A stretch of DNA of 32,280 nt from Coprothermobacterota bacterium (GTDB lineage Bacteria; Caldisericota; JANLFM01). The translations under genes and the position numbers were made by a program. The stretch is from assembly GCA_026389455.1 (NCBI GenBank), contig JAPLHV010000092.1, forward strand, positions 1 through 32,280. The letters are read 5' to 3'. The notes under the pieces are model-generated. The model made no database searches. It was not told where the DNA came from and saw only the letters and a program-made list of their open reading frames with translations. Shown here in pieces: positions 9,496-27,304 of this stretch. Numbering within the stretch: position 1 is the first letter of the stretch; each line of letters opens with the position of its first letter.

Positions 9496-9753
9496 ATGGC
9501 AGAACAAGTGACTGTGAAGGTAAGCAAGCGCTTCCAGATCGCTGTTCCCCGTGAAGCCCGCGAACGGTTGCGGATTCACGGTGGGGATCGCTTGTTAGTG
9601 GAAGTGCAAGAAGGGATGATCGTATTGCTGCCAGAGCCATCCAGTTATACGGACACTTTATGTGGCCTGCATAAGGAGATTTGGGAGGGAGTGGAGACTG
9701 ATCAATACATCAGTCGGGAACGAGACGCATGGGACGACTTCAGCAAGCCCTGA
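9496..9753 (+). CDS. AbrB/MazE-fold antitoxin (VapB-like)
   Basis: An 85-residue swapped-hairpin DNA-binding protein of the SpoVT/AbrB type. The N-terminal half (VTVKVSKRFQIAVPREARER, then RLRIHGGDRLLVEVQEG) is the family signature. The C-terminal half, rich in Trp and acidic residues (HKEIWEGVETDQYI, DAWDDF), would wrap the toxin. AAAGGAG lies 5 nt before the ATG at 9496; a GTG one codon earlier is also possible. It overlaps by 25 bp the start of a PIN-domain toxin gene, the normal order for such pairs. Here the toxin is broken, so the protein may remain only as a repressor of its own promoter or as a guard against related toxins elsewhere. Confidence 0.82.
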   Translation: MAEQVTVKVSKRFQIAVPREARERLRIHGGDRLLVEVQEGMIVLLPEPSSYTDTLCGLHKEIWEGVETDQYISRERDAWDDFSKP

Positions 9754-10083
9754 TCGCCTATCCCCTGATTGGTGTGGACACGTCCATATTTATCTGCCAC
9801 TTGGAAGGAAATCCTCGCTATCGCGACCTGGTACAAGAAGTGTTGGCCGGCGTGGAGGAGGGGAAATGGGCAGCAGTGATTGCGGGATGTGGATCGTGAT
9901 GTGGCCGGAAAAGCGTCTCAACTTCGCGCGCGCTTTGGCTTGAGGCCGGCGGACGCCATCCAGGCGGCAACTTGTTTGGTCGAGAAGGCGAAAGCATTGG
10001 TGACCAACGACAGGCAATTGGCGCGCTTGAAGCCGGTTCTTGATGTGTTCATCCTGGAAGATTACCTCCTCCCTCCCGCTTGA
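9729..10083 (+). pseudogene. PIN-domain toxin (VapC-like), broken by internal deletion and frameshift
   Basis: The first part (ATG 9729 to stop 9897-9899, 56 codons) encodes a PIN-domain start: LIGVDTSIFICHLEGNPRYR carries the first catalytic aspartate, then DLVQEVLAGVEEGKWAAV. The last part, in another frame from about 9880, encodes the PIN end: DVDRDVAGKASQLRARFG, RPADAIQAATCLVEKAKA and LVTNDRQL, with two more catalytic acidic residues. Between WAAV and DVDRDV an intact PIN protein of this type would have about 35-45 more residues, including the TSxLTLxE motif with the second acidic residue. A deletion at about 9880 therefore removed the middle and shifted the frame. The product would be an inactive fragment. 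Confidence 0.82.
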
Positions 10084-10197: not shown

Positions 10198-10602
10198 CTA
10201 CTCGAATTTCAAGGCATCGTGCAGGCAATAGCCGACGCATTCCGGTTTTCCGCCGCAGAGGTCGCACTTGAAGGCTTTTTCCGTCTTCGCATCCATCCAG
10301 ATGGCATGGAAGGGACAGGCCTCGACGCAGTTTCCACAGCCGATGCACATCTCCGGATCGAGATGAACAATCCCCTCTGCATCCTCAACCAGGGCGCCGA
10401 CAGCGCAGGCCGCAATGCATTCGGCGTTGGCGCAATTTTGGCAGAAGGCGGCCTTAAACAGTGGGTCCATCAAGGACGGGTAGTTGCGGACGATCTTGAT
10501 CCTGGCCTGCTCCAGCCCGGTGACTCCTTCGTGGGTCAACGTGCAAACGAGAGAGCACATTTCACATCCAACACATTCCTTCTGATTAAATTGCAGTTTC
10601 AC
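10198..10602 (-). CDS. Four-cluster ferredoxin, electron acceptor of the adjacent AOR
   Basis: A 134-residue iron-sulfur protein of the kind found beside aldehyde:ferredoxin oxidoreductases. Four cysteine groups are visible: CVGCEMCSLVC at 10-20, CQNCANAECIAAC at about 54-66, CIGCGNCVEACP at about 86-97 and CDLCGGKPECVGYC at about 113-126, enough for four 4Fe-4S clusters. The GTG start at 10602 overlaps the TGA stop of the AOR gene by four bases, with GAGGG six bases upstream inside the AOR end, so translation is likely coupled. It would take the two electrons released per aldehyde and pass them to a soluble ferredoxin or a membrane complex. It is the last gene of the operon. Confidence 0.88.
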   Translation of the reverse strand: MKLQFNQKECVGCEMCSLVCTLTHEGVTGLEQARIKIVRNYPSLMDPLFKAAFCQNCANAECIAACAVGALVEDAEGIVHLDPEMCIGCGNCVEACPFHAIWMDAKTEKAFKCDLCGGKPECVGYCLHDALKFE

Positions 10603-12422
10603 CGCAGTCCCTCTTCAATCTCGTATTTGGCCAAAGTTTCCTTGGTTGGAATGCCGTTGCTGTCCCAACCGCGGCTCCGGTAGTAGTCATCCAGCATGCG
10701 ATCCAGGCCGGCTTGGGTGATGTGTTGTCCCGCAGCGGGTCCGTCCGGCATGGGATCGTCCAAGACGCGGCTGGGAAGGGTATCGTCTTTGCGGGACATT
10801 CCTTCCCGCACGTTGAACATTCGGATCGTCGTTTCCACGCGGTCGGCGATGTGCGCAAGCTCCTCGTCCGAGTAATCCAGATCAGTGACCAAACGCAGGT
10901 ATTTGGCGAATTCTGCCAGCGAGACGGGTACAGCGAAACCCTGGAAGTCGCAGGCGATGAGGGAATGGAGGATATTCCGTTCGTCGTAGAGCCCCTTGAT
11001 GGCCACTCCTTTGCCCTCGGCGGTATAGGGAGGCACATCCCCAAAGACCTCCAGTGCGGGAGGCCAAGCGCGTCGATGGCAGGCGCCCCGAGGAGAGACG
11101 GCATAGGCCAGACCGGCGCCGAAGGCTCGCCTGGGGTCGTAAGCGGGGAAAGCCAGGCCCTTCGAGTGCATGGCAAAGCGATCGGAACCTTGGCCGATCT
11201 TCGAGGCCAAAAAGGCGACCCCTTCCGCCGCCCATTCTCCGATGCCCTGGCGGTAGACGATATCTTTCACCAATCGCAGGGTTCCGTCGATGTCTCCAAA
11301 GGCGATGCCGGCCTGTTCCGCGAACTCAGCCGGGATCATCCCTTTCTCGTTGGCTTCCATCAGAAAGCTGATGGCCGCTCCGACGGCGATCGTGTCCATC
11401 CCCAGCGTGTCGCAGAGCATGTTGGCTTCCGCCACCGCATCCATGCTGCTGATGCCCAGGTTGGCGCCCAACAGTCCGGTGGTCTCATACTCGGGGCCTT
11501 CCAAGCGGAAGATCTTCCCCGCGGAATCGGTACACTCCAGGATCATGCCGCAAGGAACAGGGCAGCCGAGGCAAGCCACCGAGGCCTTCGCTTTATTGAT
11601 CACCCCAGCTGAATCAAGATTGTCGGCTGCCGGTGGGAAGGTTCCGAACTGGAAGTTCTTGGTGGGGAGCATGCCCGCCGCCTGCGTTGCATCGAAGGTG
11701 ATGGCAGTGCCGGCTCTCTTGTGCGCCGCGGCGCCGCCACTGATCTTGGCGTCCGCCAGTTTCTGCTTGTTGAAGGCGAGGAAGCCGGGGATGTCGCGGC
11801 AGGGCACGCCGCCCGTTCCCTTCACCACCAAGGCTTTCAGATTCTTGGAGCCCATCACGGCGCCCACCCCGCCTCGGGCTGACTGGCGGTAGAAATCGTT
11901 GTTAATGCAGGCGAACTTCACCAGGTTCTCACCGGCGGGTCCGATCGCGGCATGCCCGAAGCCTTCTTCACCTAATTCCTTCAATAGGCGGGAGGAAGCT
12001 TCATAGGAATCAAGTCCCCACAAGTGGGAGGCGTCGCGGATCTCCACCCGGTCGTCGCGGATATAGAGATAGCAGGGGGATTGCGCTTTTCCACGCACGA
12101 TCAACCCGTTGTATCCGGCATAGACCATCTGGAAACCGACTCCGCCACTGGAGTAGCTGTCGACGAAGCCGTTCGTTTGCGGTGATTTGGTGAACACGGC
12201 ATGTTTTGTGCAGCCCGGGACCAGGGAACCGGTCATCGGCCCAGCCAGCCAAATCATCACGTTCTCCGGCCCCAGGGGATCGACTTTCCCCGGCAGCAGA
12301 TCGAGCAGGAGCCTTCCTCCCAACCCCCGCCCCCCGATGTATTTGCGGATCGTCTCGGCAGGGATTTCCATCGTACCGACCGTCTTCTCCGTCAAGTTGA
12401 TGTCCAGCAACTTAAACTTCAT
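10599..12422 (-). CDS. aor: Tungsten-dependent aldehyde:ferredoxin oxidoreductase
   Basis: Oxidises an aldehyde to the carboxylic acid and reduces ferredoxin, using a bis-pterin tungsten (or molybdenum) site and one 4Fe-4S cluster. The ATG at 12422 is preferred to one two codons upstream because GGAGG is then 7 nt away; this gives 607 residues, the normal family size. Seen are the N-terminal KYIGGRGLGGRLL pterin region, GPMTGSLVPG, the cluster ligands CLGCPVPC at about 284-291, a distant cysteine in SLIACDFQGF as the probable fourth ligand, and FNVREGMSRKDD near the end. The substrate cannot be read from sequence. The upstream alcohol dehydrogenase and MoaD-like gene suggest that an alcohol is oxidised to an aldehyde and then to an acid, with locally supplied pterin sulfur carrier. 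Confidence 0.92.
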   Translation of the reverse strand: MKFKLLDINLTEKTVGTMEIPAETIRKYIGGRGLGGRLLLDLLPGKVDPLGPENVMIWLAGPMTGSLVPGCTKHAVFTKSPQTNGFVDSYSSGGVGFQMVYAGYNGLIVRGKAQSPCYLYIRDDRVEIRDASHLWGLDSYEASSRLLKELGEEGFGHAAIGPAGENLVKFACINNDFYRQSARGGVGAVMGSKNLKALVVKGTGGVPCRDIPGFLAFNKQKLADAKISGGAAAHKRAGTAITFDATQAAGMLPTKNFQFGTFPPAADNLDSAGVINKAKASVACLGCPVPCGMILECTDSAGKIFRLEGPEYETTGLLGANLGISSMDAVAEANMLCDTLGMDTIAVGAAISFLMEANEKGMIPAEFAEQAGIAFGDIDGTLRLVKDIVYRQGIGEWAAEGVAFLASKIGQGSDRFAMHSKGLAFPAYDPRRAFGAGLAYAVSPRGACHRRAWPPALEVFGDVPPYTAEGKGVAIKGLYDERNILHSLIACDFQGFAVPVSLAEFAKYLRLVTDLDYSDEELAHIADRVETTIRMFNVREGMSRKDDTLPSRVLDDPMPDGPAAGQHITQAGLDRMLDDYYRSRGWDSNGIPTKETLAKYEIEEGLR

Positions 12423-12474
12423 ATTCATTCCTCCAAGAGATAGACTTCATTTTCACGCACGCCATCCTTTCGGG

Positions 12475-12750
12475 TCATCCACCGCCCATGATGGTGGTGA
12501 TCAATACCCGATCCTGGTCGTGTAACTGATTTCCGGGATCCCGGGTCAGGGTTCCATTGAGAATGATCAGGTAATCCTTCTTCCATTGGCCGGAAGCCAG
12601 CAAGTCGGCAATGGGCGCACGGCTCCCCTCGACCAGCCGGCGGAAGATGGATTCCACCGTCGGGGGGGATGGGGCGTCATCCTCCACCACCATCTCCTGG
12701 TAGCGGCCTTTGGTCACGCCGGGAATGTTGAAGAATACGGTGATCGGCAA
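12475..12750 (-). CDS. MoaD/ThiS-like ubiquitin-fold sulfur carrier
   Basis: A 91-residue protein ending in MGGG; the exposed Gly-Gly end is the site that MoaD-type carriers thiocarboxylate for dithiolene formation in molybdopterin or tungstopterin. DYLIILNGTLTRD followed by LHDQDRVLITTIMGG is the usual late part of the beta-grasp fold. The start is a TTG (12750) with a poor ribosome-binding site, 6 bp after the alcohol dehydrogenase stop, so it probably relies on translational coupling. MoaD-like genes often accompany AOR genes. An alternative role in thiazole formation or protein conjugation is possible, given the TenA-like gene nearby, but the immediate AOR neighbour favours cofactor supply. 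Confidence 0.8.
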   Translation of the reverse strand: MPITVFFNIPGVTKGRYQEMVVEDDAPSPPTVESIFRRLVEGSRAPIADLLASGQWKKDYLIILNGTLTRDPGNQLHDQDRVLITTIMGGG

Positions 12751-12756
12751 GGTCGC

Positions 12757-13782
12757 TCAGTCCATCACAATGACGCTGCGGCCCTTGACCTTGCGGTCGA
12801 TGATCCGTTGGAGGGCGTCATTGATCCGTTCCAACGGGTAGCGGTTCTCGATGATCGGGTTGGCCCGCTTCTCGCTGGCAAAGCGGAGGGCCAGCTCGAG
12901 GTCGCGCTTGCAGCCGGCGACGGAGGTGACTACTTTCCCTTCTTTGATCAGGAGATCCACCGGGTAGAAATCCAGGTTTTGCTCTTTCTGGTAGCCAATG
13001 ATCAACAGACGTCCGCCGATTCCCAGGCACTCGATTCCTGCCTTCAGGCTACCCTTGGTCCCGACCAGCTCATAATAGACGTCCACGCCGCGGCCCCCAG
13101 TCAGCTTCCGCACTTCCTCGTCAAGCTTGCCGTAGTCGCTAACCACCAGGGTTTCATTGGCGCCGACCCGCTTAGCTAGTTCAGCTTTCTCCTCCGAATC
13201 AGCCACTGCAATGACATGAGCGCCGAAGATCCTGGCCACCTGGATGCACATCAATCCCACCCCGCCGACACCGTTCACCAGCACAGTGTCGCCGGCTGTC
13301 GTTCCGGCCACGCGCGAGGAATGAACGGCGGTCATCCCGCTGCACGATAGCACGGCGCCCTCTTCGAAGGAGACTTCCTGCGGGAGAGCTACCAGCGAGG
13401 CGACAGGCGCCTGGACGTACTCCTCGAAGCCCCCGTTGTGGGTAAAGCCGATCTGTCCCTTGCGCGTGGGGCAGGTGTTCTCCATTCCGTTGCGGCAATA
13501 GAAACACTTGCCGCAATTCATCACGTTGTAGACGACGACTCGGTCTCCCTTGCGGAAGCCGGCGCCCTCGGGATCGATCTCGTCGATCACGCCAGCGATC
13601 TCATGTCCCAGGACGAGGGGCTCGGGACCAAAGGGGAAGATCCCTTCCAGGAAATCCAGCTCGGTGGCGCATACTCCGGCCGCTCTCACCTTGACGATGG
13701 CTGTGCCCTTTTCCAGCTTGGGCTTTTCGATTTCCTCGATTCGCAGCATTTCCTCTGGTTTGTGTATTCGTGCGGCTTTCAT
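12757..13782 (-). CDS. Zinc-dependent medium-chain alcohol dehydrogenase
   Basis: A 341-residue MDR-superfamily NAD(P)-dependent dehydrogenase. The ATG at 13782 is preferred over a GTG four codons upstream, which would touch the AAGGAG. Catalytic zinc ligands are the cysteine in RAAGVCATELD and the histidine-glutamate pair in LVLGHEIAG. The structural zinc lobe is complete, with NCGKCFYCRNGMENTC. The nucleotide-binding motif is VNGVGGVGLMCIQVA, and the strand ending HVIAVADSEEKAELAKR has an Asp after the fold, favouring NAD over NADP. It lies between the TenA-like and MoaD-like genes with gaps of 15-27 and 6 bp. It would feed an aldehyde to the AOR; the alcohol is unknown. Confidence 0.88.
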   Translation of the reverse strand: MKAARIHKPEEMLRIEEIEKPKLEKGTAIVKVRAAGVCATELDFLEGIFPFGPEPLVLGHEIAGVIDEIDPEGAGFRKGDRVVVYNVMNCGKCFYCRNGMENTCPTRKGQIGFTHNGGFEEYVQAPVASLVALPQEVSFEEGAVLSCSGMTAVHSSRVAGTTAGDTVLVNGVGGVGLMCIQVARIFGAHVIAVADSEEKAELAKRVGANETLVVSDYGKLDEEVRKLTGGRGVDVYYELVGTKGSLKAGIECLGIGGRLLIIGYQKEQNLDFYPVDLLIKEGKVVTSVAGCKRDLELALRFASEKRANPIIENRYPLERINDALQRIIDRKVKGRSVIVMD

Positions 13783-13809
13783 TTCGGCAATCACTCCTTA
13801 TTCTAGGGT

Positions 13810-14523
13810 CTATTCCTGGATGGTGGTGAACTTGGGGGGGAAGATCTCCTCAAGCGGCCAAGTCTCCATGGCATAGTAGCTGTGCCAGGTAAGGTATTCA
13901 TAGTTGCAGCCGACAGCGAAGATCTCCTCAATCTTGGCCAGCTCCCTCGGGGTCTTGTGTGCAACCAGCTTGTCGATCAACGCTACCAGCTTCTGGGTGG
14001 CTTCAGTGAACCACCCCCGCGTGTAGAACTCGATCCAATCGCGATAGAGATGGCCTACCGGCAACTCGCATCGTGCCGCCAGGTATTTGCCCATCTCCCA
14101 GTAGACCACGTCGCAGGGAAGCAAGGAGGTCACCTGCTCAGCCAGATCCCCTTCCCAGCTTCGGGCCAGCTCGTGGGAGGTGTAGGACCGTTTGGTGTTG
14201 TTCATCACCGTCCCATCCATCTCCTCAAAGGAGATGCCTAGTTTATTCTTCCAATAATCCCGGTAGAAGGGGATCTCGTGTTCCACTGTTTCCTTGACGA
14301 TCTCGTACCAGAAACTCATCGTCTCGAAATCGCTGCATTTGGCCATGCCGATTGCCCAGGCCTTGGCATACTCGATCAAATAGTTGTAGTTCTGCTTTAC
14401 CTGGAACTTGAACTTCTCCAGCGGCAGGGTCCCATCGACGATCCCCCGCAGGTGCGGGGTCTCCGCCTCCAGCTCCACCGTTTTCTTGGCCATCGGAAGT
14501 AGACGTTCTGCAAAAAAGCCCAA
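13810..14523 (-). CDS. tenA: TenA/PqqC-superfamily protein (thiaminase II-like)
   Basis: TenA proteins are all-helical hydrolases that cleave thiamine or release HMP from aminopyrimidines. The helical bundle is evident: LRGIVDGTLPLEKFKFQVKQ with the NYLIEYAKAWAIG that follows, then VEHEIPFYRDYW, then SLLPCDVVYWEMGKYLA, whose cysteine is at the position of the TenA nucleophile, and finally FAVGCNYEYLTWHSYYA, the usual YExxFW region in altered form (YEYLTWH). Starts are not ATG: TTG at 14523 has AGGAGG 8 nt upstream and is preferred to TTG at 14529; an ATG lies ten codons further in. It lies in the importer/AOR operon. The altered active-site end means the substrate may not be thiamine; another pyrimidine is plausible. 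Confidence 0.8.
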   Translation of the reverse strand: MGFFAERLLPMAKKTVELEAETPHLRGIVDGTLPLEKFKFQVKQNYNYLIEYAKAWAIGMAKCSDFETMSFWYEIVKETVEHEIPFYRDYWKNKLGISFEEMDGTVMNNTKRSYTSHELARSWEGDLAEQVTSLLPCDVVYWEMGKYLAARCELPVGHLYRDWIEFYTRGWFTEATQKLVALIDKLVAHKTPRELAKIEEIFAVGCNYEYLTWHSYYAMETWPLEEIFPPKFTTIQE

Positions 14524-14551
14524 GATCAATTCCTCCTTCGATTGATTTCCT

Positions 14552-15209
14552 TCATGTGCTTGCTGGCTTGGCCTGTCCTTGCCCTTCCGATGCAGCGGAA
14601 TATTTTACCAGAAAGGCTTCCAGGACGGTGAGGTCAAGGATTGTCTTCTCGGTATCCAGGGCCAGGCCAATAGCGGGCAGTTCCGGCAAGTCGCGCGACC
14701 GCGCTTGTCTTCGGATACGTTGGATGAAAACGCCCGGTCCGTCTACAAAGATGTCATTCTGCCCAGCCAGATCCAAGGATGGGCATCCCAACCAGATCCA
14801 AGGATGGGCATCCCAACCAGATACCCTTGGCGTCCCGATCGGTGATGTCGACGCCGCAGGAAGGGCTGCCGTCGATTCCCACCAGGACCACCGTGAAACC
14901 GTGGCTGAGATAATCCTCCACTGAATCCAGCAAGAGGTCGGCCAGGCGATCATAGCTGCGCCGGAAACCAGCGCAGCGGTATTGGTCGCTGACCTGCCAC
15001 CAGCGGCGGAGCCCCGCCGTCTCCATCTCCGGGCAGGGCATTTGCACCAGCCCGAAGCGGTATCGCTCCAGTAAAGCCGCTACCCCGGGGACGGCGGCCG
15101 GGAATCGCGCCAACCCGGCTACCTTGGCGTTTTGATTGAGGATGCAGTGGGCCACCAAGGCCACTTTGCCGCTTCTCTGATCTCGAAATGGGTTCACACC
15201 GTTTCTCAT
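14552..15209 (-). pseudogene. TudS-related (CD3072-type) putative desulfidase, frameshifted by a 25-bp duplication
   Basis: Related to DUF523/TudS enzymes, which remove sulfur from thiouracil with a 4Fe-4S cluster. The first frame (ATG 15209) encodes VALVAHCILNQNAKV, FGLVQMPCPEMETAG and VGIDGSPSCGVDIT, holding the three cysteines (about 22, 59 and 118) that match the cluster ligands of the family. It then reads WLGCPSLDL and shifts to a stop at 14754. The correct end is in another frame, IFVDGPGVFIQRIRRQ to the stop at 14552. Removing one copy of the tandem 25-bp unit (14771-14820) restores a single frame of about 210 codons reading WLGCPSLDLAGQNDIFVDG. The break lies after all three cysteines, so a truncated product might keep some activity. 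Gaps of 22-28 bp to tenA and about 80 bp to the lipoprotein gene place it in the operon. Confidence 0.85.
14771..14820. repeat. 25-bp tandem duplication causing the desulfidase frameshift
   Basis: Two perfect copies of a 25-bp unit (14771-14795 and 14796-14820), with four further matching bases (CCAG) before the first. The unit length is not a multiple of three. Replication slippage could gain or lose a copy, so this is either a recent loss, a reversible switch or an assembly error. Confidence 0.95.
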
Positions 15210-15225
15210 CACCGATTCATTCCCG

Positions 15226-15266
15226 GGAAGGCTTGCCCGTTCCTCCTTGAGCCAGGCAAGCCTTCC
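15226..15266 (-). promoter_or_regulatory. Intercistronic hairpin after the lipoprotein gene
   Basis: Perfect 12-bp GC-rich arms (15226-15237 and 15255-15266) with a 17-nt loop, 22 bp after the stop of the substrate-binding protein gene and before the desulfidase gene. There is no T-run, so it is more likely an RNA-stabilising or partial-attenuation hairpin that raises binding-protein mRNA over the downstream enzymes, as is common in ABC operons. Confidence 0.5.
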
Positions 15267-15288
15267 ACGATCGAAATTGTCGATTTCG

Positions 15289-16470
15289 CTACGGGTTGCT
15301 CTTCATCGAGGTCACGACGCCCTGAACCCACCAGTCCATCGACAACAACTGTTCCTGGGTGAGCTGCTTCCCTGCTTCCACGCGGACCGTACCGTTGACG
15401 TCCTTGATTGGCCCTTTCCAGAAGAACTCGGGGTCTGTTTTCATCTTTTCTTTCGATGCCGCCACCAGCGCCTTCATCTCGTCGGTGACCATCGGGCCGA
15501 ACTCCGCTGTTCCGGCCACGCCGGAGAAGATGTCCGGCCAGAAGGAACGAGCTTTCCAGCTACCGTCATGGATCGCTTGCAGGGTGGGGATGTAGTACTT
15601 CTCCCAGAAGAAGACATCACCGGAGACATACGCATTGGGGCCGAATTGGCGCATGTCCTCGAACTGGCTCATAGCGTAGACGCCCTTCTCTTCTGCAGCT
15701 TGCACGTGAGCTGGGTCGTTGGTAGCCTGGGCGATCACATCGGCGCCGGCATCGATCAAAGCCAAGGCGGCATCCCGCTCAGCAGCGGGGTCATAGTAGG
15801 TGTTGATGTAGATGATCCGTTCCGTCACGGCCGGGTTGACGCTTTGTGCGCCCAACAACCAGGCATTCTGGATTTGCAGGTCAACCGGAAAAACCACGGC
15901 GCCGACCATGCCAATGACGTTGGTCTTGGTTATCTTGCCGGCAATCTGGCCCAGCATGTACCAAATCTGCGTGGTCAGGGGGTAGCAAGTCTCCACGTTG
16001 GATGTGACAGTGACGCCGCAAATATTGATGAACTTCACATTGGGGAACTTCTCGGCCACCTTCAAACTATCCGCCTCGTAGCCGGAGGTTGCCGCGACGA
16101 TCACGGAATATCCGCTGTTGCACAGCTCGGTCATCACACGTTCCGCCTGCGCGCCAGGCGTTACGTTCTCCAGATAGGAGGTCTCCACGAAATCGAGTGC
16201 TGCCTGGGTCAGCTTCCTGGCTTTCTCGTGCCCGTAGTACCAGCCGAAATCTCCGACTGTGGTGTCATAAAGAAAGGCCACTTTCATCTTTGCTTCCGGA
16301 CTGGCGGTGGGACTGGGAGAGCTAGCGGTTGGGCTGGGGGAACTAGCCGTGGGACTGGGAGAGCTTACCGTCGCCGTAGGACTAGGGGAACTGGTAGGGC
16401 TTGAGGCGCATCCCACCAATAAGCTGGCACACACTGTCAGTGCCAGGAAAAAAACGGTCAACTTCTTCAT
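15289..16470 (-). CDS. BMP-family ABC transporter substrate-binding lipoprotein
   Basis: The solute-binding part of a nucleoside/nucleobase-type importer (Bmp/PnrA/NupN family). The 393-residue product starts at ATG 16470 with AAGGAGG 8 nt upstream. A short lipoprotein signal ends in the lipobox LLVGC, with cysteine 21 lipidated. Residues 22-60 are a Ser/Pro/Thr tether. The mature domain begins KMKVAFLYDTTVGDFGWYYG, the BMP-family opening, and continues with VAATSGYEADSLKVAEKFPN, GKITKTNVIGMVGA, and NTYYDPAAERDAALALIDAGAD, all family signatures. It lies 88 bp downstream of its permease gene. Known members bind purine or pyrimidine nucleosides, but relatives with other ligands exist; the neighbourhood favours a nucleobase or a related heterocycle. 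Confidence 0.9.
   Translation of the reverse strand: MKKLTVFFLALTVCASLLVGCASSPTSSPSPTATVSSPSPTASSPSPTASSPSPTASPEAKMKVAFLYDTTVGDFGWYYGHEKARKLTQAALDFVETSYLENVTPGAQAERVMTELCNSGYSVIVAATSGYEADSLKVAEKFPNVKFINICGVTVTSNVETCYPLTTQIWYMLGQIAGKITKTNVIGMVGAVVFPVDLQIQNAWLLGAQSVNPAVTERIIYINTYYDPAAERDAALALIDAGADVIAQATNDPAHVQAAEEKGVYAMSQFEDMRQFGPNAYVSGDVFFWEKYYIPTLQAIHDGSWKARSFWPDIFSGVAGTAEFGPMVTDEMKALVAASKEKMKTDPEFFWKGPIKDVNGTVRVEAGKQLTQEQLLSMDWWVQGVVTSMKSNP
16303..16392 (-). repeat. Coding 21-bp repeats in the lipoprotein tether
   Basis: Residues 27-56 are built of a seven-residue unit (SSPSPTA) repeated about four times with one variant. The DNA copies differ at several third positions, so the repeat is not fresh. 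It forms a flexible tether between lipid anchor and binding domain and could vary in length between strains. Confidence 0.8.
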
Positions 16471-16558
16471 TGCTTTGCCTCCTTGTTTTTTCGCACTTTG
16501 TGACTGTCTTGAATCCTATCCGTGTTCTTTAACACCTCCTATTTTATCGATTGCTCGG

Positions 16559-17488
16559 TCATTTCGAACCTCTTAAGTAAGGAACGGCCAGCGTCTTCGG
16601 TGCGATGCTGCCCTTCTGTTTGGCTCTCCAACTGACCAGGATCAGGATCACCAGCGGCAGCACGTAGGGGAACATGCGCAGGAAGTAGGAGGGGACGGCA
16701 ATCCCCATCGCTTCCAGGCGATAGCTGAGGGCATAGAAGATGCCGAAGAGGTAGGCGCCGGTGATAGTGTTTTGCGGTTTCCATAAGGCGAAGTTGACCA
16801 AGGCGATGGTTAACCATCCGCGCCCGGCGGCCATCCCTTCGATCCAACTGGGGCTGTAGGCCAGGGACAGGTACGCTCCAGCGATTCCGGCCAGGATGCT
16901 CCCCACGATCGTGTAGATGTAGCGGACTTTGTAGACGCTGACCCCAAGGGAATCCAAGGTGGCTGGATTGTCCCCAGCCGCGCGCAGGTGCAAGCCGGCC
17001 TTCGTCTTATAAACGAAGAACCAGGCGGCGATACAGAGAATCACAGCGATGTAGACCAAGATGTCCTGTTCGAAGATCGGTTTTAGCATCGGCACTCCGT
17101 CCAAGAAGGGCATCCGGATCTTCTTGAAAGTATCGGTGGCTACCACGCCGATGTAGGGTTTCCCGATCAAGGCGCTCAGGCCGGTGCAGAAGATGGTGAA
17201 GGCGATTCCGGTGGCCACTTGGTTGGTTCGGTAGGTGACCATCAAGAGAGCTAGGATGGCTCCTAATAAGGCACTGATCACGATCACTGCCAGGATGCCG
17301 ATCCACTTGTCTCCCGTCAGGCTGGCGAACATATACCCGGTGATGGCGCCCATCAGCATCAGGCCTTCCAACCCCAGATTCAAAACGCCGCATCGCTCGG
17401 CCAGCACTTCCCCGATGGCGGCGTAGAGCAAAGGGGTGCCAGCGGTGATTCCCATCCCGATGATCCAGAGTATCGTTCGCAGATCCAT
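16559..17488 (-). CDS. ABC transporter permease, BMP/branched-chain type (second)
   Basis: A 309-residue integral membrane subunit with about nine hydrophobic segments. ITAGTPLLYAAIGEVLAER and GVLNLGLEGLMLMGAITGY near the start are the characteristic opening of the YufQ/NupQ-like permease, and AAGDNPATLDSLGVSVYKVR is the cytoplasmic coupling loop that contacts the ATPase. The ATG follows the first permease's stop by one base, with GAGGAG inside the upstream gene, so translation is coupled. It would pair with the first permease in a heterodimeric channel. The gap to the lipoprotein gene holds no hairpin. Confidence 0.9.
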   Translation of the reverse strand: MDLRTILWIIGMGITAGTPLLYAAIGEVLAERCGVLNLGLEGLMLMGAITGYMFASLTGDKWIGILAVIVISALLGAILALLMVTYRTNQVATGIAFTIFCTGLSALIGKPYIGVVATDTFKKIRMPFLDGVPMLKPIFEQDILVYIAVILCIAAWFFVYKTKAGLHLRAAGDNPATLDSLGVSVYKVRYIYTIVGSILAGIAGAYLSLAYSPSWIEGMAAGRGWLTIALVNFALWKPQNTITGAYLFGIFYALSYRLEAMGIAVPSYFLRMFPYVLPLVILILVSWRAKQKGSIAPKTLAVPYLRGSK

Positions 17489-17489
17489 C

Positions 17490-18638
17490 TCAGCGCTCCT
17501 CCCCGGCGGCCTGGGGGATCTCGCATGAATCCTTCAGCACGCTTCCGGCTGCGCTTGTGTCCGCCGCCAAGCGGCTCTTTTGGGGCTGTTCGCGAGTCCA
17601 GGTGAACTTGTAAACCGTCAGGATCTCGCCGGCTAAAACCAGCAGCAGGATCAACCCTTTAAGCATGGAGATCACCATCGAGGGGATCCCCATCATCTGC
17701 ATGGTGAAACCGGCCACCAACAAGCCGGCAAAGAGGTAGCTGACGATCAGGATGGCGCCGGTGCCCAGACGAGCTACCCAGGCGATGACGAAGGCGGAAA
17801 AGCCATAATCCGCAGAGATGGTGGGCTGCAATCGGTGCACCACGCCTGACACCTCCATCATCCCCGCCACCCCGGCTACGGCGCCGCTCAAGAACATGGC
17901 GATGAAGAAGTACTTCCGGATGTTGATCCCAGCGTATTTTGCGCCGCGGATGTTTTCTCCTACAGCGCGCATCTCGTAGCCATAGACGGTGCGGTTGACG
18001 AAGTAATGGACCAGGATGATGACCCCAATGACGACCAGAAATCCGATGTGAACCCGTGAATCAGCAATCAGGATGGGCAGCCTGGCAGCTTCCGCGAAGG
18101 GAGCCGTCTGGGGCGCCACCGTCGCCGGGTCATCCCAGGCGTCGAAGACCAGATAGCGGATGAAGTAGATCACCACGCTGTTCATCAAGATGGTGGTCAG
18201 AATCTCGCTGATCCCCAGGTAAATTCTGGGCAGCACGGAGATGTAGGCGAGCAAACCTGCCACGATCGCCCCGGCGAAGAACATCAGGATCAAGAGGATC
18301 GGCGCCGGCAGGTTGGGAAAAGCCAATGCCACCCCAGTTGCTGCTGCTGCACCAGCGAAGAATTGTCCTTCCACGCCGATGTTCCACAACCCTGCCTTGG
18401 CGGCTACGGCGACAGCCAGCGCACAGAGGGAGAGGGGAATCAGCATGAGGAGGTTTTCCAGGATCCCCGGGATGGTGAGATAGGTTTGGCCGAACGCCTT
18501 GGCGAAGATCTCGATCGGCTTGTATCCCATGATGCTGAGCACGAGTGTGCTGATCGCCAAAGCCAGGATGATGGCGGCGATCCCTACCAGGATGCTGGTC
18601 GAGGTTTGGGAAGTTTGACGTTTTTCAATTCGTAACAT
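17490..18638 (-). CDS. ABC transporter permease, BMP/branched-chain type (first)
   Basis: A 382-residue membrane subunit, YufP/NupP-like. About nine or ten hydrophobic segments follow a short basic N-terminus. KAGLWNIGVEGQFFAGAAAA is the hallmark of this permease, and ISEILTTILMNSVVIYFIRY and RAVGENIRGAKYAGINIRKY (coupling loop) are also typical. It starts 14 bp inside the end of the ATPase gene. The C-terminal tail after the last segment (about 40 residues, polar, with Lys/Arg) is longer than usual and not conserved by eye. Part of the same importer as its neighbours. Confidence 0.9.
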   Translation of the reverse strand: MLRIEKRQTSQTSTSILVGIAAIILALAISTLVLSIMGYKPIEIFAKAFGQTYLTIPGILENLLMLIPLSLCALAVAVAAKAGLWNIGVEGQFFAGAAAATGVALAFPNLPAPILLILMFFAGAIVAGLLAYISVLPRIYLGISEILTTILMNSVVIYFIRYLVFDAWDDPATVAPQTAPFAEAARLPILIADSRVHIGFLVVIGVIILVHYFVNRTVYGYEMRAVGENIRGAKYAGINIRKYFFIAMFLSGAVAGVAGMMEVSGVVHRLQPTISADYGFSAFVIAWVARLGTGAILIVSYLFAGLLVAGFTMQMMGIPSMVISMLKGLILLLVLAGEILTVYKFTWTREQPQKSRLAADTSAAGSVLKDSCEIPQAAGEER

Positions 18639-20190
18639 CGGCTGATTCCTCGGTCTGGTAGGGGATACCCATCATGGCGCAGCCCAGGGTTTCTATGGTC
18701 CAATCGTTGCGGTGCTTCTTGGAGGTCATTTCACCCTTGTAGATCACGGCGATGCTGTCCGAGAGAGTCAAGATCTCGTCAAGGTCCTCGGAGATAAGCA
18801 GGATGGCACACCCTCTTTTCTGTTCTTGGATCAGGTAGTTGTGCACCATCTCGACAGCGCAGATATCCAGACCGTAGGTAGGATGTACGGCCACGATCAG
18901 TTTCGGTCCGCAGGAGATCTCACGGGCCAGGATCAGCTTTTGCATGTTGCCCCCAGAGAGCAGCTTGATTGGCGTATTGGGGGAGGACATGCGCACATCG
19001 TATTCCTTAAGTAGCCGGCCACCGATCTCCTCCGCCTTGCGGTGGTTCAAGGTCCAACCCCGACGGATCGGAGGCTTCCTGTAACTCTTTAAGATGACAT
19101 TGTCGATGCAACTGAATGAGGGGATCGAACCGGTCCCGATGCGGTCCTCGGGAATGTGGCTGATCCCGGCCTGAATGAAGTGGAGGGTAGCTCCCTTGAT
19201 CTCCTTCTGGTTCAGCGAGACCGTCCCCGCTTCCAGAGGTCGCATTCCCGTCAATGCTTCCGCCAGTTCGGATTGACCATTGCCGGAGACCCCCGCAAGG
19301 CCCAGGATTTCGCCCTTCTCAATGGTAAAGGAAACTCCCTTCAAGGCGACCTGGCCCTCGTCTCCCTTGGCCGTCAGCCCTTCCGCGACCAGGACCGGCT
19401 CCCGCCGGACCTCCTTGTCGATAGCGATCTTGGCGATCGTCTCCATCTCCCGACCGATCATCATCCGGGCCAGCTCCTTGGGACTGGTTTGGTCCTTGTC
19501 CATGGTCCGGATCAAACGGCCCTCCCGGAGGACGGTGACGCGGTCGGCTATCTCCATCACTTCGTTCAGCTTGTGGCTGATGAAGATGACCGTCTTGCCC
19601 TGAGTCTTCATCTCCCGCAAATAGACGAACAATTTCTCCGTCTCTTGGGGGGTTAGCACCGAGGTGGGCTCATCAAGGATCAGGAACTCCATATTGCGGT
19701 AAAGCATCTTGATGATCTCCACCCGTTGTTTCTGCCCGGCGGACAAATCCCGTACGGTGATGTTGGGATCCACCGGCAGGTTATAGCGGGCGGAGAGATC
19801 GGCGATATGTTTCACCAGGACCGGTTGGTTTAGCAGCCAACCTTGTTCCTTCCAGCCGATGATAATGTTTTCGTATACTTTCAGCTCTTCGACCAACTTG
19901 AAGTGCTGGTGAACCATCCCGATCCCAGAGGCGATAGCGTCCTTGGGGTTGCGAATGTGGACTTCCTTGCCGTGAATGAAGATTTTCCCTGCATCTGGCG
20001 TATACAAGCCGGTGAGAATGTTCATCAGGGTACTCTTCCCGGCGCCGTTTTCACCCAGCAGGGCGTGGATTTCGCCCTTGCGGATGGTCAAATCCACGGA
20101 CTGGTTGGCCAACACGCCGGGGAAAGTTTTCGTGATTCCCCGCAATTCGAGGGCGTTCTCAGCTACGACGAGGTCGGCTGTAGGGCTCAA
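18625..20190 (-). CDS. ABC transporter ATP-binding protein with two cassettes (BMP-type importer)
   Basis: The energy subunit (521 residues) of the importer, organised like YufO/NupO and RbsA. The first cassette is complete: Walker A LLGENGAGKSTLM, signature LSAGQKQRVEI and Walker B LILDEPTSVL. The second has the expected degenerate form: SGNGQSE in place of Walker A, signature LSGGNMQKLIL, and VAVHPTYGLD without the catalytic glutamate. The start is a TTG at 20190 with GAGG six bases upstream; an in-frame TAG lies a few codons above, so no longer start exists. It is the first gene of the ten-gene operon that runs to the ferredoxin. The promoter should be in the divergent gap to 20654. Confidence 0.92.
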   Translation of the reverse strand: MSPTADLVVAENALELRGITKTFPGVLANQSVDLTIRKGEIHALLGENGAGKSTLMNILTGLYTPDAGKIFIHGKEVHIRNPKDAIASGIGMVHQHFKLVEELKVYENIIIGWKEQGWLLNQPVLVKHIADLSARYNLPVDPNITVRDLSAGQKQRVEIIKMLYRNMEFLILDEPTSVLTPQETEKLFVYLREMKTQGKTVIFISHKLNEVMEIADRVTVLREGRLIRTMDKDQTSPKELARMMIGREMETIAKIAIDKEVRREPVLVAEGLTAKGDEGQVALKGVSFTIEKGEILGLAGVSGNGQSELAEALTGMRPLEAGTVSLNQKEIKGATLHFIQAGISHIPEDRIGTGSIPSFSCIDNVILKSYRKPPIRRGWTLNHRKAEEIGGRLLKEYDVRMSSPNTPIKLLSGGNMQKLILAREISCGPKLIVAVHPTYGLDICAVEMVHNYLIQEQKRGCAILLISEDLDEILTLSDSIAVIYKGEMTSKKHRNDWTIETLGCAMMGIPYQTEESADVTN

Positions 20191-20653
20191 CCTTCGCCTC
20201 TGTTTCTACCCGCGATCACAAGCTTGAACCGTTCTCTGTGGATAGTAGGTGGGTACGCGACGAGACCGTATGGGGGAGAACATGGAGACGCGCTTCCTTT
20301 TCAACCTTTGCATCCGGAAGGAAACTCCTTTACCTAGGTTAAGATCGTTGCCTGGATGGTACAAGAAGCCTTATGATAAAAATACAATATACATCATGCA
20401 TAGTATGGTGGTTTCCTTGCCGCGTCAATGGGGTGTTTTTCGTCTCCGCCAGCGAGGACTCACCGCTCCATGATTGCCGCTCCAGTGCCGTAATGACGAT
20501 TTTTGACCGCATCACTTGGAAATCGATAGCCTCGATCCTGCCGATAAGGTGCGCTGATCGGTGGAGTTGCCTGCTGCTGGTTTGGCTCCTTTTTCGGTTA
20601 AAATGAGGCGAAATGTACGCGTTGGGCAATTAAGACAAGAACGGGAGGAGCCA
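20191..20653. other. Divergent intergenic region between the importer operon and the deaminase
   Basis: 463 bp without a plausible gene. An AT-rich stretch at about 20370-20405 is the best place for a promoter of the importer operon, but no hexamer pair is convincing. On the reverse strand the leader would be about 170 nt, long enough for a regulatory RNA. I looked for purine, TPP, THF and preQ1 riboswitch cores and did not recognise one. The deaminase ribosome-binding site is GGGAGGAG at 20643-20650. Confidence 0.4.
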
Positions 20654-22036
20654 ATGAAGAGAACCTTGATCCGTGAGATCGCCGAGCTTTATCCATTCGA
20701 CCAAGCGGACAGCCATCTTCAGGATGGTTACATCTTCATCGAGGACGGCCTCATCACCGCCCTGGGGTGCGGAGAGCCTCCGCCAGCCTTGCGGATGGCG
20801 GCGGACCAGGTGATCACGGCTCGCGATCGTCTGGTGCTTCCGGGATTCGTCAACACCCATCACCATTTCTACCAGACGCTCACCCGTAATGTCAGAGCGG
20901 TGCAGAACAGCAAGTTGGAGGATTGGATCCTTCACCTCTATCAGCTTTGGCAAGGCCTCGACGAGGAAATGGTCTACCGTTCCAGCCTGGTCGCTCTTTT
21001 GGAAATGCTGAAGAGCGGTGTCACCACCACGGCTGACCACCATTACGTCTTCCCGCAGGGGTGTCCGAAAATGATCGATGCCGAGATCGAAGCCGCTCGC
21101 GCCGTCGGCGTTCGCTTTCATCCGACTCGCGGAAGCATGTCCCTCTCCGTTGAGGAGGGGGGGTTGCCGCCGCGGAGCTTGGTGCAGAGCGAGGAGCAAA
21201 TCCTGGACGACTGCTTGCGACTGGTGCGGAGATATCACGACAGGGGACCGCGCTCGATGGTTCGCATCGGCCTGGCGCCCTGCTCCCTCTACGAGGTGAC
21301 GCCCTCGTTGATGAGAGAGACCCTGCGTCTGGCGGAGGAAGAGGATCTCCTGCTGCATACGCACCTCTGTGAGACTCGAGACGAGGTGCTCTTCTGCCGG
21401 GAACGATTCGGTCGCAACCCGGTAGATCTGATGGATGATCTTGGATGGTTGACACCCCGCACTTGGTTCGCTCATTTCATCCATTTGACCGAGGACGAGT
21501 TGACCAAGGCAGGCCGCGCCGGCGTGGGGATGTCCTATTGCTCTTCCTCCAACATGAGGCTCGCTTCCGGCATCGCGCCGATTGGACCCTTGCAGGCCGC
21601 GGGAGTTCGAACCAGCATCGGCATTGATGGCAGCGCCAGTAACGATATGAACAACATGGTGTTGGAGATGCGCACCGGCCTCCTTCTGCAGCGACTGCGC
21701 GACGGAGCGGGTTCCATGACGCCGCTTCAGATCCTTTCCATGGCCACCCGGGAAGGGGCCGCCGTGCTCGGTCGAGGGCAAGAGATCGGCTCGCTGGAGA
21801 TCGGAAAAGCGGCGGATTTGGTGGGCTTTCGTCTGGACACTTTGGAACTGGCGGGCGGGCTGGACGATCCCTTGGGCGCTCTCTTGTTTTGCGATGTGAA
21901 AGGGGCCGACCTCTGTTTGGTAAATGGCGAGGTTCTGATCCGTAACGGGGAGCTGCAACGATGGGACGCCGAGGAGCTGGAGGCGATCATTCGCTGTCAG
22001 AATCGCAATTCTCGAAAATTAATCCGGGGAGAATGA
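20654..22036 (+). CDS. Amidohydrolase of the 8-oxoguanine/isocytosine deaminase type
   Basis: A 460-residue metal-dependent deaminase (cog0402, related to AtzB/SsnA). The ATG at 20654 follows GGGAGGAG by 3 nt; the open frame above it has no family similarity. Metal site: GFVNTHHHFYQTLTR (HxH), the histidine in LLHTHLCET, AHFIHLTEDE, and the aspartate of GIDGSASND. The markers that separate 8-oxoguanine deaminase from its relatives are present: TTTADHHYVFPQG, FHPTRGSMSLS, GLAPCSLYEVT and SSNMRLASGIAP. Known enzymes convert 8-oxoguanine to urate (EC 3.5.4.32), and members have been reported to act on isocytosine, giving uracil. That product would feed the PreTA/hydantoinase operon, which converges on this gene from the other side. 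It is divergent from the importer operon. Confidence 0.85.
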   Translation: MKRTLIREIAELYPFDQADSHLQDGYIFIEDGLITALGCGEPPPALRMAADQVITARDRLVLPGFVNTHHHFYQTLTRNVRAVQNSKLEDWILHLYQLWQGLDEEMVYRSSLVALLEMLKSGVTTTADHHYVFPQGCPKMIDAEIEAARAVGVRFHPTRGSMSLSVEEGGLPPRSLVQSEEQILDDCLRLVRRYHDRGPRSMVRIGLAPCSLYEVTPSLMRETLRLAEEEDLLLHTHLCETRDEVLFCRERFGRNPVDLMDDLGWLTPRTWFAHFIHLTEDELTKAGRAGVGMSYCSSSNMRLASGIAPIGPLQAAGVRTSIGIDGSASNDMNNMVLEMRTGLLLQRLRDGAGSMTPLQILSMATREGAAVLGRGQEIGSLEIGKAADLVGFRLDTLELAGGLDDPLGALLFCDVKGADLCLVNGEVLIRNGELQRWDAEELEAIIRCQNRNSRKLIRGE

Positions 22037-22091: not shown

Positions 22092-23348
22092 CTATGCCGA
22101 TCCTTCCGTATGCTCTTCCTTTGCTGTGAAACGAATGGCTGCGGGAACCGGACAGGTGATCCTGCAGAGTCCGCACCCGGCGCACTTCTCGGAATCCACC
22201 CGGACGGTCCGATCGGGGTGGAATTCGATGGCCTGATAGGCGCCGTCCCGGCAAGCCAGGTAGCAGCGACCACAGCCGATGCACAGATCCGCATCGATCT
22301 GGGCGATCAACTGCTGTCGCCGGCTGAGCTCCTTGCTGGAGCGGGCCAGCTTGGGCCGAATGGCGCCGACCAGTTCCTCCACCGTCCTGAAGCGATGTTT
22401 CTCCATGAAGGCTGCCAGACCGTCTCTCAAATCCTCGATCAGTCCATACCCCTCCAGCATAATCTGCGTCGTAACCTGCACAGTCCGCGCTCCCAGCAGG
22501 AGGAACTCGATGGCATCCTGGGCGCAGGTCACGCCACCGGCTGCGGAGAGCTGAAGTTGGAGCGACGGTTCGCCGGCCAGCTCATCGAGGCAGAACTGAG
22601 CAATGGGTTTTATAGCGGCGCCGGAAAGGCCGGCTGCTGCCGACATCCCTTCGATGGTGGGGAAGGGGGAGAGGGTGGCGAGGTCGATTCCGGAGATCGA
22701 TTTCAAAGTATTAATGGCCGTCAGCGCGGCTGCTCCGCCCTCCTGCGCGGCCAGTCCGATGGCGGCGAGATTGGCCACATGGGCGCTCAGCTTCACCATC
22801 ACCGGCAGGTAGGTTGCACTCTGCACCCAAGTGACCACCTCCTTCACCGACTGCGGGTTCTGCCCGATCGACCCACCCGCACAACTGCCGCCTTCCCCGC
22901 AAGGATCTGGGCAGGAGAGGCATAGCTCGATGGCGTCGGCGCCGGCCGCAGTGGCCAATCCTGCTAAATGCTGCCACTGCTTTTGATCGAATTCCGCCTT
23001 GAGGCTGATGGCCAGAAATTTGTCAGGGTAGCGGCTCTTGAGGAGGGCGTAATCAGCCATCGTCTTCTCCACCGACTGGTCAATGCGGAAGTCGATGTTG
23101 GCGAGCCCCCCCTTATAGGGAGCGGTGAGGCCGCTGCCGCCCAGGCCGATCCCAGCGAAACGGGGGGAAAGGCTGTGATCGGGCAGATCCTGGGCCAAGG
23201 AGACGCTCTTGGTGACCGCCCCTGCCCACCCCATGCGAAAAGCCCGTTCGATCATCTCCCCGAAGCGGGAGACGGGGGAGGCCGCCAGGAGGAAAGGGTT
23301 CTCGCACTGGAAGCCGCAGAAGGATACCTTCAGGTCCGGTCTACTCAC
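22092..23348 (-). CDS. preA: Dihydropyrimidine dehydrogenase-like subunit PreA (divergent)
   Basis: The FMN subunit that reduces uracil or thymine to the dihydro form. The 418 residues start with a dihydroorotate-dehydrogenase-like barrel and end with two 4Fe-4S motifs, CIGCGRCYLAC (about 357) and CAGCGLCRITCP (about 389). Ring-binding features are present: AINTLKSISGIDL with the Asn-Thr pair, and GLSGAAIKPIAQF. The catalytic loop is unusual: LSCPDPCGEGGSCAGGSIGQ replaces the usual SCPHGMxERGMGxxxGQ pattern, so the proton donor cannot be assigned and the substrate may differ. The GTG start overlaps the end of preT by eight bases with GGGAGAGG upstream. It is the last gene of its operon, 55 bp from the convergent deaminase. 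Confidence 0.83.
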   Translation of the reverse strand: MSRPDLKVSFCGFQCENPFLLAASPVSRFGEMIERAFRMGWAGAVTKSVSLAQDLPDHSLSPRFAGIGLGGSGLTAPYKGGLANIDFRIDQSVEKTMADYALLKSRYPDKFLAISLKAEFDQKQWQHLAGLATAAGADAIELCLSCPDPCGEGGSCAGGSIGQNPQSVKEVVTWVQSATYLPVMVKLSAHVANLAAIGLAAQEGGAAALTAINTLKSISGIDLATLSPFPTIEGMSAAAGLSGAAIKPIAQFCLDELAGEPSLQLQLSAAGGVTCAQDAIEFLLLGARTVQVTTQIMLEGYGLIEDLRDGLAAFMEKHRFRTVEELVGAIRPKLARSSKELSRRQQLIAQIDADLCIGCGRCYLACRDGAYQAIEFHPDRTVRVDSEKCAGCGLCRITCPVPAAIRFTAKEEHTEGSA

Positions 23349-24726
23349 CTTGGCGCCTCTCCCGGGATAGGTACTGATGGATACTCAGGGCTGCCCGCTT
23401 TCCATCTGCCACTGCCTGCACCACTGTTCCCCGTCCCTTTCCGATCAAATCCCCACCGGCGAACACCCCATCCACGTTTGTCGCCAGGTCTTCGTTGACG
23501 CGGACGAACCCCTCTTCGTCAACCCAGATCCCTTGAGACTCCAGGGAGGCACAATCAGTCCCGTAGCCGAGGGCGTAGACCACCATCTCCACCGGAAGCT
23601 CGAAGCTGTACCCCTCTACGGCTCGAAACGATCTGCGGCCGGAACTGTCCAATGGGCCGGGCGCCGTCCGGGCGCAGACAATCGAGCGCACCCGCCCGGC
23701 AGAGTCTCCTTCCAAGGCGACGGGAAGGCAAAGCAGGTGGAAGATGACCCCCGCCTGCCAGGCCTCCTCCCGTTCCTCGTCCCAGGAGGTCAATTCCTTC
23801 GGTGTTCTTCGGTAGAGGACATGGACCATCTCCACCCCCTCGGCCAACAAGCTGCGGGCCACGTCCATTGCCGCGTTACCGGCGCCAACCACGGCAGCGG
23901 ACTTGACCCCAGCGCTCTTCCAGTCCTCCTGTGTCAGGATTTGATCGGCTGTCGAGACCCCGATCAACTGATTCCCGGGAATTTCCGGAATGTTCTCCCT
24001 CCATTTCCCGGTGGCAAGGAAGACCGCCTGGCAGCCTTGACGGCGCAGATCATCCAGACCAAGTTCCATGCCGAAAGCTCTGCTGCGGTGAATAATGAGG
24101 GGCGAGGCAAGGATCTCCAGCTCACTGCGCAGGACGGCAGAGTCCAGGCGGAAGGAGGGGATGCCGTGGGAAAGCCTCCCACCAATGGTGTCTGTTTTCT
24201 CCCATAGCTCCACCCTGTAACCGAGCCTGACCAGAATGAGGCCGCAGGTTAGACCAGCCGGACCCGAACCAATGACGGCGACTAGACCACTGCTGGCGGC
24301 GACATTGGTCGGAGCCTCCCGCTTGACCTGACCCTCCACTACGATCCGTTGCTCGGCTAGTTGCGGGCGGGTGAGGAAGCGGTTGGAGGATCCCGCCCGG
24401 CGATTCTCCTCGATGGCGAAGCGCTGCAGCGAGCGGATGTCGATGGCCCGGCCGAGCTTGCGGGCGGTGCAGTCCTTCTGGCAGAGCACCTCGCTGGGAC
24501 AGATCCAGCCACAGATCAAGCCGAAGGGGTTGTCCCTCTCGATGGTGTCAGCCGCGCCGGAGACATCCCCTTTGCTGAGCTGCCGGATGAAACGAGCGAC
24601 GTCGATGCCCGCCGGACACCCCTGATTGCAGGGCGGATCGCAGCACCGCAGGCACCGTGCGGCCTCCCAATAGGCGCCCTTGAGGCGGGGAGGCATCGAG
24701 TTCGGCATGCTCACCGTTGGCGGCAT
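23341..24726 (-). CDS. preT: NAD(P)H:FAD/iron-sulfur subunit PreT
   Basis: The electron-input partner of PreA, homologous to the small subunit of glutamate synthase. The N-terminal domain carries the cysteines for two iron-sulfur clusters: CLRCCDPPCNQGCPAGID at 25-42 and CGWICPSEVLCQKDC at about 72-86. FAD binding is at GSGPAGLTCGLILVRLGYRV (about 151-170), NAD(P)H binding at VVGAGNAAMDVARSL, and the C-terminal flavin motif is VFAGGDLIGKGRGTVVQAVADGK. Several ATG codons crowd the start (24726, 24708, 24696) and none has a good ribosome-binding site; the first overlaps the hydantoinase end by 16 bases and is kept. The 461-residue length is normal. Confidence 0.88.
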   Translation of the reverse strand: MPPTVSMPNSMPPRLKGAYWEAARCLRCCDPPCNQGCPAGIDVARFIRQLSKGDVSGAADTIERDNPFGLICGWICPSEVLCQKDCTARKLGRAIDIRSLQRFAIEENRRAGSSNRFLTRPQLAEQRIVVEGQVKREAPTNVAASSGLVAVIGSGPAGLTCGLILVRLGYRVELWEKTDTIGGRLSHGIPSFRLDSAVLRSELEILASPLIIHRSRAFGMELGLDDLRRQGCQAVFLATGKWRENIPEIPGNQLIGVSTADQILTQEDWKSAGVKSAAVVGAGNAAMDVARSLLAEGVEMVHVLYRRTPKELTSWDEEREEAWQAGVIFHLLCLPVALEGDSAGRVRSIVCARTAPGPLDSSGRRSFRAVEGYSFELPVEMVVYALGYGTDCASLESQGIWVDEEGFVRVNEDLATNVDGVFAGGDLIGKGRGTVVQAVADGKRAALSIHQYLSRERRQGE

Positions 24727-26093: not shown

Positions 26094-26096
26094 TTT

Positions 26097-27293: not shown

Positions 27294-27304
27294 CTCGATG
27301 CTCC

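Follow-up and report, generated by a model that had tools for sequence, protein, structure and literature searches.

A ten-gene operon from an uncultured anaerobe, a Coprothermobacterota bacterium, joins a nucleobase-type importer to an aldehyde oxidation module, and in the two of its proteins that read small molecules, a Bmp-family lipoprotein and a TenA-like enzyme, the usual recognition residues are gone while scaffold and catalytic residues remain. The operon runs from 20190 to 10198 on the minus strand of a 32,280-nucleotide stretch of DNA (contig JAPLHV010000092.1 of assembly GCA_026389455.1; hereafter ‘the window’), which is the entire contig C110 of a metagenome-assembled genome (MAG) of 2.63 Mb in 263 contigs, 89% complete. 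Because both proteins have lost the residues that read the usual ligand, the cluster probably handles an unusual pyrimidine-like compound and not parts of vitamin B1. We tentatively propose, as a real possibility that falls short of being probable, that the operon serves to import and anaerobically oxidize an alcohol or aldehyde that derives from a nucleobase, with TenA repurposed to a substrate other than hydroxymethylpyrimidine (HMP), probably an oxo-pyrimidine. All parts of the operon belong to known families; together they suggest that a TenA-family enzyme has a role apart from thiamine metabolism and that a tungsten aldehyde:ferredoxin oxidoreductase (AOR) uses an aldehyde derived from a nucleobase. 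To our knowledge, neither has been described. In 5′ to 3′ order, the genes are as follows.

18625..20190, minus strand: ATP-binding cassette (ABC) transporter ATPase of a Bmp/B6-type importer, 521 aa (PF00005; best NCBIfam match NF047930, below cut-off).
17490..18638, minus strand: importer permease, 382 aa (BPD_transp_2, PF02653; best NCBIfam match NF047929, below cut-off).
16559..17488, minus strand: importer permease, 309 aa (BPD_transp_2, PF02653; best NCBIfam match NF047928, below cut-off).
15289..16470, minus strand: Bmp/PnrA-family lipoprotein, AtzT-like, with the altered pocket W77, T128, S129, V196, Y225, A249, N251 (PF02608).
14754..15212, minus strand: 5′ part of a TudS-related (CD3072 family) desulfidase gene, its frame broken ahead of the C-terminal part (NF045597, E 1.7e-31).
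14762..14822, no strand assigned: 25-bp tandem duplication shifting the TudS frame (Tandem Repeats Finder, 2.4 copies, 97% matches).
13810..14529, minus strand: TenA-like protein with N47 at the invariant Asp44 (B. subtilis numbering) and with C139, Y116, Y143 and E211 retained (TIGR04306).
12757..13794, minus strand: zinc-dependent alcohol dehydrogenase (ADH) of the medium-chain dehydrogenase/reductase type (PF08240, PF00107).
12475..12750, minus strand: MoaD/ThiS-like sulfur carrier with a C-terminal GGG (ThiS family, 20.7 bits, just below the cut-off of 22.5).
10599..12428, minus strand: AOR-family aldehyde:ferredoxin oxidoreductase of a subclade with the motif RG(A/G)CHRRAWPP (PF02730 and PF01314, that is, AFOR_N and AFOR_C).
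10198..10602, minus strand: 4Fe-4S ferredoxin, overlapping the AOR gene by 4 bp (PF13247 and other Fer4 models).

All ten genes named in an earlier note on this DNA are present, on one strand and in the order it gave. Its description of tiny gaps or overlaps fits in part: the array is operon-like, yet of the intergenic distances (−14, 1, 88, 76, 224, 15, 6, 46 and −4 bp, 5′ to 3′) three or four are not tiny, the 224-bp gap lying behind the broken TudS frame. The gene families were assigned correctly throughout, with one correction: the TudS-like gene is frameshifted by the 25-bp duplication. GC content at third codon positions is even over the operon genes (0.70–0.78). Promoter and terminator scans gave results no better than shuffles, and an Rfam search of the window returned no thiamine pyrophosphate (TPP) riboswitch and no other match.

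The nearest solved structures to the lipoprotein are Brucella 3s99 (E 2e-69), a nucleobase-binding Bmp structure modelled with adenine, and AtzT (6pi5, E 5e-66), so that the nucleobase-type importer linked by the earlier note to an ADH and a tungsten-type AOR, the latter accompanied by a dedicated MoaD and ferredoxin, is supported. The AlphaFold model of the lipoprotein superposes on AtzT with a TMt of 0.93 at 38% identity, as a Cluster B-I protein by both fold and homology. AtzT binds guanine with a dissociation constant of 0.11 µM, adenine with 2.5 µM and uracil with 1600 µM. One numbering offset places all nine AtzT pocket residues listed in PMC6834077, and gives Tyr45 as W77, Ser97 as T128, Phe98 as S129, Glu165 as V196, Trp194 as Y225 and Asn218 as A249, with Asn220 retained as N251. 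The aromatic sandwich around the ligand (Tyr45/Trp194) persists as W77 and Y225, unlike the purine-reading Glu165 and its partners at 98 and 218, which have become V196, S129 and A249. On sequence grounds, then, the lipoprotein has kept the ring sandwich and lost purine reading, and it would bind some planar ring compound that is neither guanine nor adenine.

Four paralogues from purine gene clusters (L137, L138, L139 and L142), one of them from the window's own genome, carry W45, S97, F98, E165, W194, H218 and D220, identical to 3s99. We discarded the idea that the lipoprotein of the window simply serves purine import, as the purine-reading Glu is lost here and kept in the paralogues. In genomes of the same family, such clusters comprise molybdenum hydroxylase subunits, PreT, PreA and an amidohydrolase, in some with adenine deaminase, followed by the Bmp importer; that of the window's own genome lies on contig C77. 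After the lipobox of the window lipoprotein, three 21-bp repeats (16304–16365) code for an SPSPTAS linker.

The TenA-like protein scores 142.4 bits against the thiaminase II equivalog model TIGR04306 (cut-off 130), and its structural model (predicted local distance difference test score 91) has the haem oxygenase-like TenA fold, with 2qcx as the best fold match and a template modelling score of 0.85 to 1yaf. We aligned it with 14 comparators (12 genome homologues and the B. subtilis and H. pylori enzymes). Nine positions are invariant among these, and the window protein matches eight, including catalytic Cys135, Tyr112, Tyr139 and Glu205 (C139, Y116, Y143 and E211 here; the same in 14/14 comparators). 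It differs only at Asp44, which is Asp in 14/14 comparators and Asn (N47) in the window. Further changes replace Phe25 (1tyh chain numbering) with His and Phe208 with Thr. According to PMC5623701, Asp44 hydrogen-bonds the amino groups of HMP phosphate, and B. subtilis TenA is impaired by the substitution D44A. Relatives of the TenA-like protein borne on plasmids are all below 60% identity.

Thiamine partners are also missing: the MAG, at 89% completeness, has no match to ThiC (PF01964) or ThiE (PF02581), and for ThiD (PF08543) a single match of 22.4 bits, below the cut-off of 27. HMP freed by the enzyme could therefore not be converted back to thiamine by the usual route. Taken together, the Asp44Asn change and the thiamine genes not found indicate that the TenA-like protein is probably not a thiamine salvage enzyme. 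The change from Asp to Asn suggests that it acts on an oxo-pyrimidine; if so, and if the reading proposed above is true, an N47D mutation should restore HMP chemistry. More generally, the altered readers yield a short list of candidate substrates.

The TudS-related open reading frame (15212–14754) reaches 108.9 bits against NF045597, under the 130-bit cut-off, and matches only model positions 2–122 of 148 because the 25-bp duplication shifts the frame. The remainder of the gene sits in another frame (the pieces were searched with the frame as it stands), and no single frame matches the full model above cut-off. Within positions 2–122 the match to the TudS thiouracil desulfidases (DUF523; NF045597 branch) is strong, and the region of their three-Cys motif lies upstream of the break, which could have arisen in the organism or during assembly. 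Elsewhere in the phylum (L191, 7135–9256), a cytosine/purine/uracil permease gene is followed 44 bp downstream by a TudS gene of the CD3072 branch, a pairing that supports a tie between TudS and nucleobase uptake.

For the oxidation module, the closest relatives of the ADH are in a genome of the same family, G003 (63% identity), and on contig C259 of the window's own genome (61%); the expected zinc-ligand motifs were seen by inspection. The MoaD-like protein is 59% identical to the homologue adjoining the AOR in G003. The AOR itself aligns with 1aor (E 1.5e-120) at a CxxC...C pattern, a distal C, a Glu and a His; we take the cysteines to be the [4Fe-4S] ligands and the Glu and His to be active-site residues. 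With both AFOR domains, the cluster cysteines and a MoaD-like gene 46 bp upstream, the enzyme is predicted to be a tungsten-type AOR with aldehyde:ferredoxin activity. The combination of AOR, MoaD and ferredoxin is a described module of tungsten enzymes (PMC1779556), with aorD/aorE in the aorABCDE cluster of Aromatoleum (PMC6365974), and we regard it as real and general: the window shares with these clusters an AFOR_N/AFOR_C enzyme, an adjoining MoaD-like gene with a C-terminal GG and an adjoining 4Fe-4S ferredoxin. It is unlike them in adding a nucleobase-type importer, TudS, TenA and ADH in one array, and in having no gene for an FAD subunit.

In a 75-row tree, the window AOR falls in a six-member subclade with support 100. 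Partners in the subclade include a tripartite ATP-independent periplasmic (TRAP) transporter, MoaD, ferredoxin and a PucR regulator (L050); MoaD, ferredoxin and a PF04909 enzyme at 13269–14261 (L047); and ferredoxin and a PF04909 enzyme at 568–1551 (L051). As these partners differ, the subclade does not fix the substrate. The PF04909 proteins of L047 and L051 are nearest to ACMSD decarboxylases, and their genes beside AORs are a possible pairing of aldehyde-to-acid oxidation with decarboxylation.

From these parts we infer the substrate, order and direction of the reactions as follows. The AtzT-type lipoprotein and ABC transporter would import a planar nucleobase-like heterocycle that is not guanine, adenine or thiamine, and an intact TudS would first desulfurize a thio-base. 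The TenA-like enzyme would then act on a pyrimidine other than HMP, plausibly one with a carbonyl at the position of the HMP 4-amino group, freeing a hydroxymethyl group. The zinc ADH would oxidize this alcohol to the aldehyde, passing electrons to NAD(P), and the AOR would oxidize the aldehyde to the acid, passing electrons to the co-encoded ferredoxin; the pterin of the tungsten cofactor would receive its sulfur from the MoaD-like protein.

A special case of this scheme, which we consider quite unlikely, is the anaerobic salvage of modified uracils of the tRNA-wobble type, such as 5-(methyl)aminomethyl-2-thiouracil. TudS would strip the 2-thio group, TenA with Asn at position 44 would hydrolyse C5-CH2-NHR to give 5-hydroxymethyluracil, ADH would form 5-formyluracil and the tungsten AOR would yield 5-carboxyuracil and reduced ferredoxin, beside a reductive uracil pathway. 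It would explain why a TudS gene is present, why TenA has its Asn and why the genes are ordered as they are, with TudS, TenA, ADH and AOR following the sequence of reactions. Against it weigh the preference of characterized TudS enzymes for 4-thio over 2-thio substrates (PMC10611767) and the finding of no isoorotate decarboxylase (PF04909) in the MAG. A limited literature search found no described pathway for such a salvage route. Fungal thymidine salvage (thymine-7-hydroxylase, then isoorotate decarboxylase; PMC4787775) offers an analogy only, being a stepwise oxidation of the 5-methyl side chain of a uracil ring via alcohol and aldehyde to the acid; it differs in using an oxygenase, and in ending with a decarboxylase of whose family no member was found in the window's genome.

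The genomic setting favours nucleobases as the source of the substrate. The host genome holds many nucleobase-degradation genes, and the operon's neighbours in the window are of this kind; besides an adenine deaminase gene truncated by the contig start, they are as follows.

20561..22036, plus strand: divergent neighbour of the 8-oxoguanine deaminase family (NF006055, 555.5 bits, above the cut-off of 532).
22092..29326, minus strand: reductive pyrimidine cluster of PreA, a PreT-like subunit, dihydropyrimidinase, a family III CoA-transferase and methylmalonyl-CoA mutase.

Conservation was examined by searching for TenA in 148 and a further 346 genomes, for the Bmp lipoprotein and the ADH in 386 each, and for the AOR in 291 genomes with an added contig-level scan (the matches listed are a lower bound). 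Among these genomes and the matches listed, no family-wide conserved ten-gene operon was found elsewhere. G003 held the only close AOR relative among the matches listed (80% identity), on a 13-kb contig together with a Bmp-family lipoprotein (22% identical to that of the window), an ADH (63%), a methylmalonyl-CoA decarboxylase set, MoaD (59%) and ferredoxin. The ADH paralogue on C259 is 85% identical to the G003 ADH and shares its setting, with importer and decarboxylase, and with no AOR in the stretch read.

Several points weigh against the proposed oxidation of a nucleobase-derived alcohol or aldehyde. Since the full operon is seen only once, there is no conservation to show that its parts act together; the TudS gene is broken here; and TenA and TudS were detected neither on the AOR contig of G003 nor in the G003 genome. 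The earlier note had held that homologous operons without TenA and the importer would refute its joint pathway, and this has come about in part, as G003 has a Bmp-family lipoprotein and neither TenA nor TudS, and no TenA was found near the AOR at any of the 80 AOR loci fetched. The substrates of ADH and AOR are not readable from sequence, and the pair can also run as acid reduction (PMC6365974). Finally, Asn at position 44 might simply give a weak or dead TenA.

The main rival, which we consider unlikely, is that the substrates of ADH and AOR are (methyl)malonate semialdehyde and the corresponding hydroxy acids, formed in reductive uracil or thymine breakdown, TenA and TudS being side genes that trim unusual pyrimidines into the reductive pathway. 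The cluster of PreA, PreT, dihydropyrimidinase, CoA-transferase and mutase lies next door (22092–29326), the G003 contig with the 80% identical AOR also carries an ADH gene and all components of a Na+-pumping methylmalonyl-CoA decarboxylase, and the C259 ADH paralogue sits with an aminotransferase III, a subunit like xanthine dehydrogenase (XDH), a Bmp importer and the same decarboxylase. However, an oppositely oriented gene separates the two transcription units, the assignment of mutase and CoA-transferase to methylmalonate is indirect, the decarboxylase could use another acyl-CoA, and TenA, TudS and the altered binding pocket are left unexplained. Another reading, open because the full set is seen once, is a patchwork with no joint function, which we rate as rather unlikely: a MoaD-AOR-ferredoxin module, itself mobile, and an ADH of broad range would have come to lie behind an importer and oxidize or reduce miscellaneous aldehydes and acids, with TenA and TudS as passengers. 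PMC1779556 describes AOR-MoaD clusters as sporadic in occurrence and perhaps mobile, the range of aldehydes that AORs accept is wide (PMC6365974), the partners within the AOR subclade vary (L050, L047, L051 and G003) and the TudS of this singleton operon is broken. Co-linear order, short gaps and even composition speak against a patchwork, as do the ties of several subclade partners to transport or nucleobase-type genes and the substitutions, in lipoprotein and TenA alike, at exactly the residues that read the usual ligand.

Weakest is the pathway of the earlier note, in which thiamine, HMP or a precursor is imported, TenA frees HMP, and ADH and AOR oxidize it to the pyrimidine acid with reduction of ferredoxin. 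The importer and the oxidation module of that pathway stand, and its substrate does not; we consider it very unlikely. HMP does bear a hydroxymethyl group, and TenA scores above the thiaminase II equivalog cut-off with Cys135, Tyr112, Tyr139 and Glu205 retained. HMP or thiamine oxidation was nonetheless dropped as the leading reading on the Asp44Asn change at the amino-binding position and the absence of ThiC, ThiE and an above-cut-off ThiD from the genome; a route that only degrades HMP could, however, do without these three. The homology of the lipoprotein to nucleobase binders, the Rfam search of the window, which turned up neither a TPP riboswitch nor anything else, and the close AOR relative without TenA point the same way.

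Some further features were noted in the window and its relatives. The methylmalonyl-CoA mutase family protein at 27305–29326 has an N-terminal B12-binding domain (residues 2–107) followed by the mutase domain, an IcmF-like domain order without the GTPase part. The second importer cluster of the window's genome (L162 on C259, 65–15462) contains an aminotransferase III, a nitroreductase, an XDH-like subunit, an ATPase-permease-permease-Bmp set, an ADH and methylmalonyl-CoA decarboxylase subunits, and its layout recurs in G003 (L046). The MmdA-like carboxyltransferase in G003 (L046, 2613–4844) carries about 230 additional residues at its N-terminus, and that of the window's genome (L162, 11209–13590) is split into two frames. 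On the plus strand of the window, 9493–10083 encodes an AbrB/MazE-type antitoxin and, behind it, part of a PIN domain that aligns with no more than the end of the model; the two may be the decayed remains of a toxin–antitoxin pair. Short tandem arrays are numerous in the MAG (L142, 9447–10099; L143, 2501–2932; L144, 2227–4422; L162, 17210–17810) and show up in open frames as repeats, for example of QLDSPR and AAAGYC.

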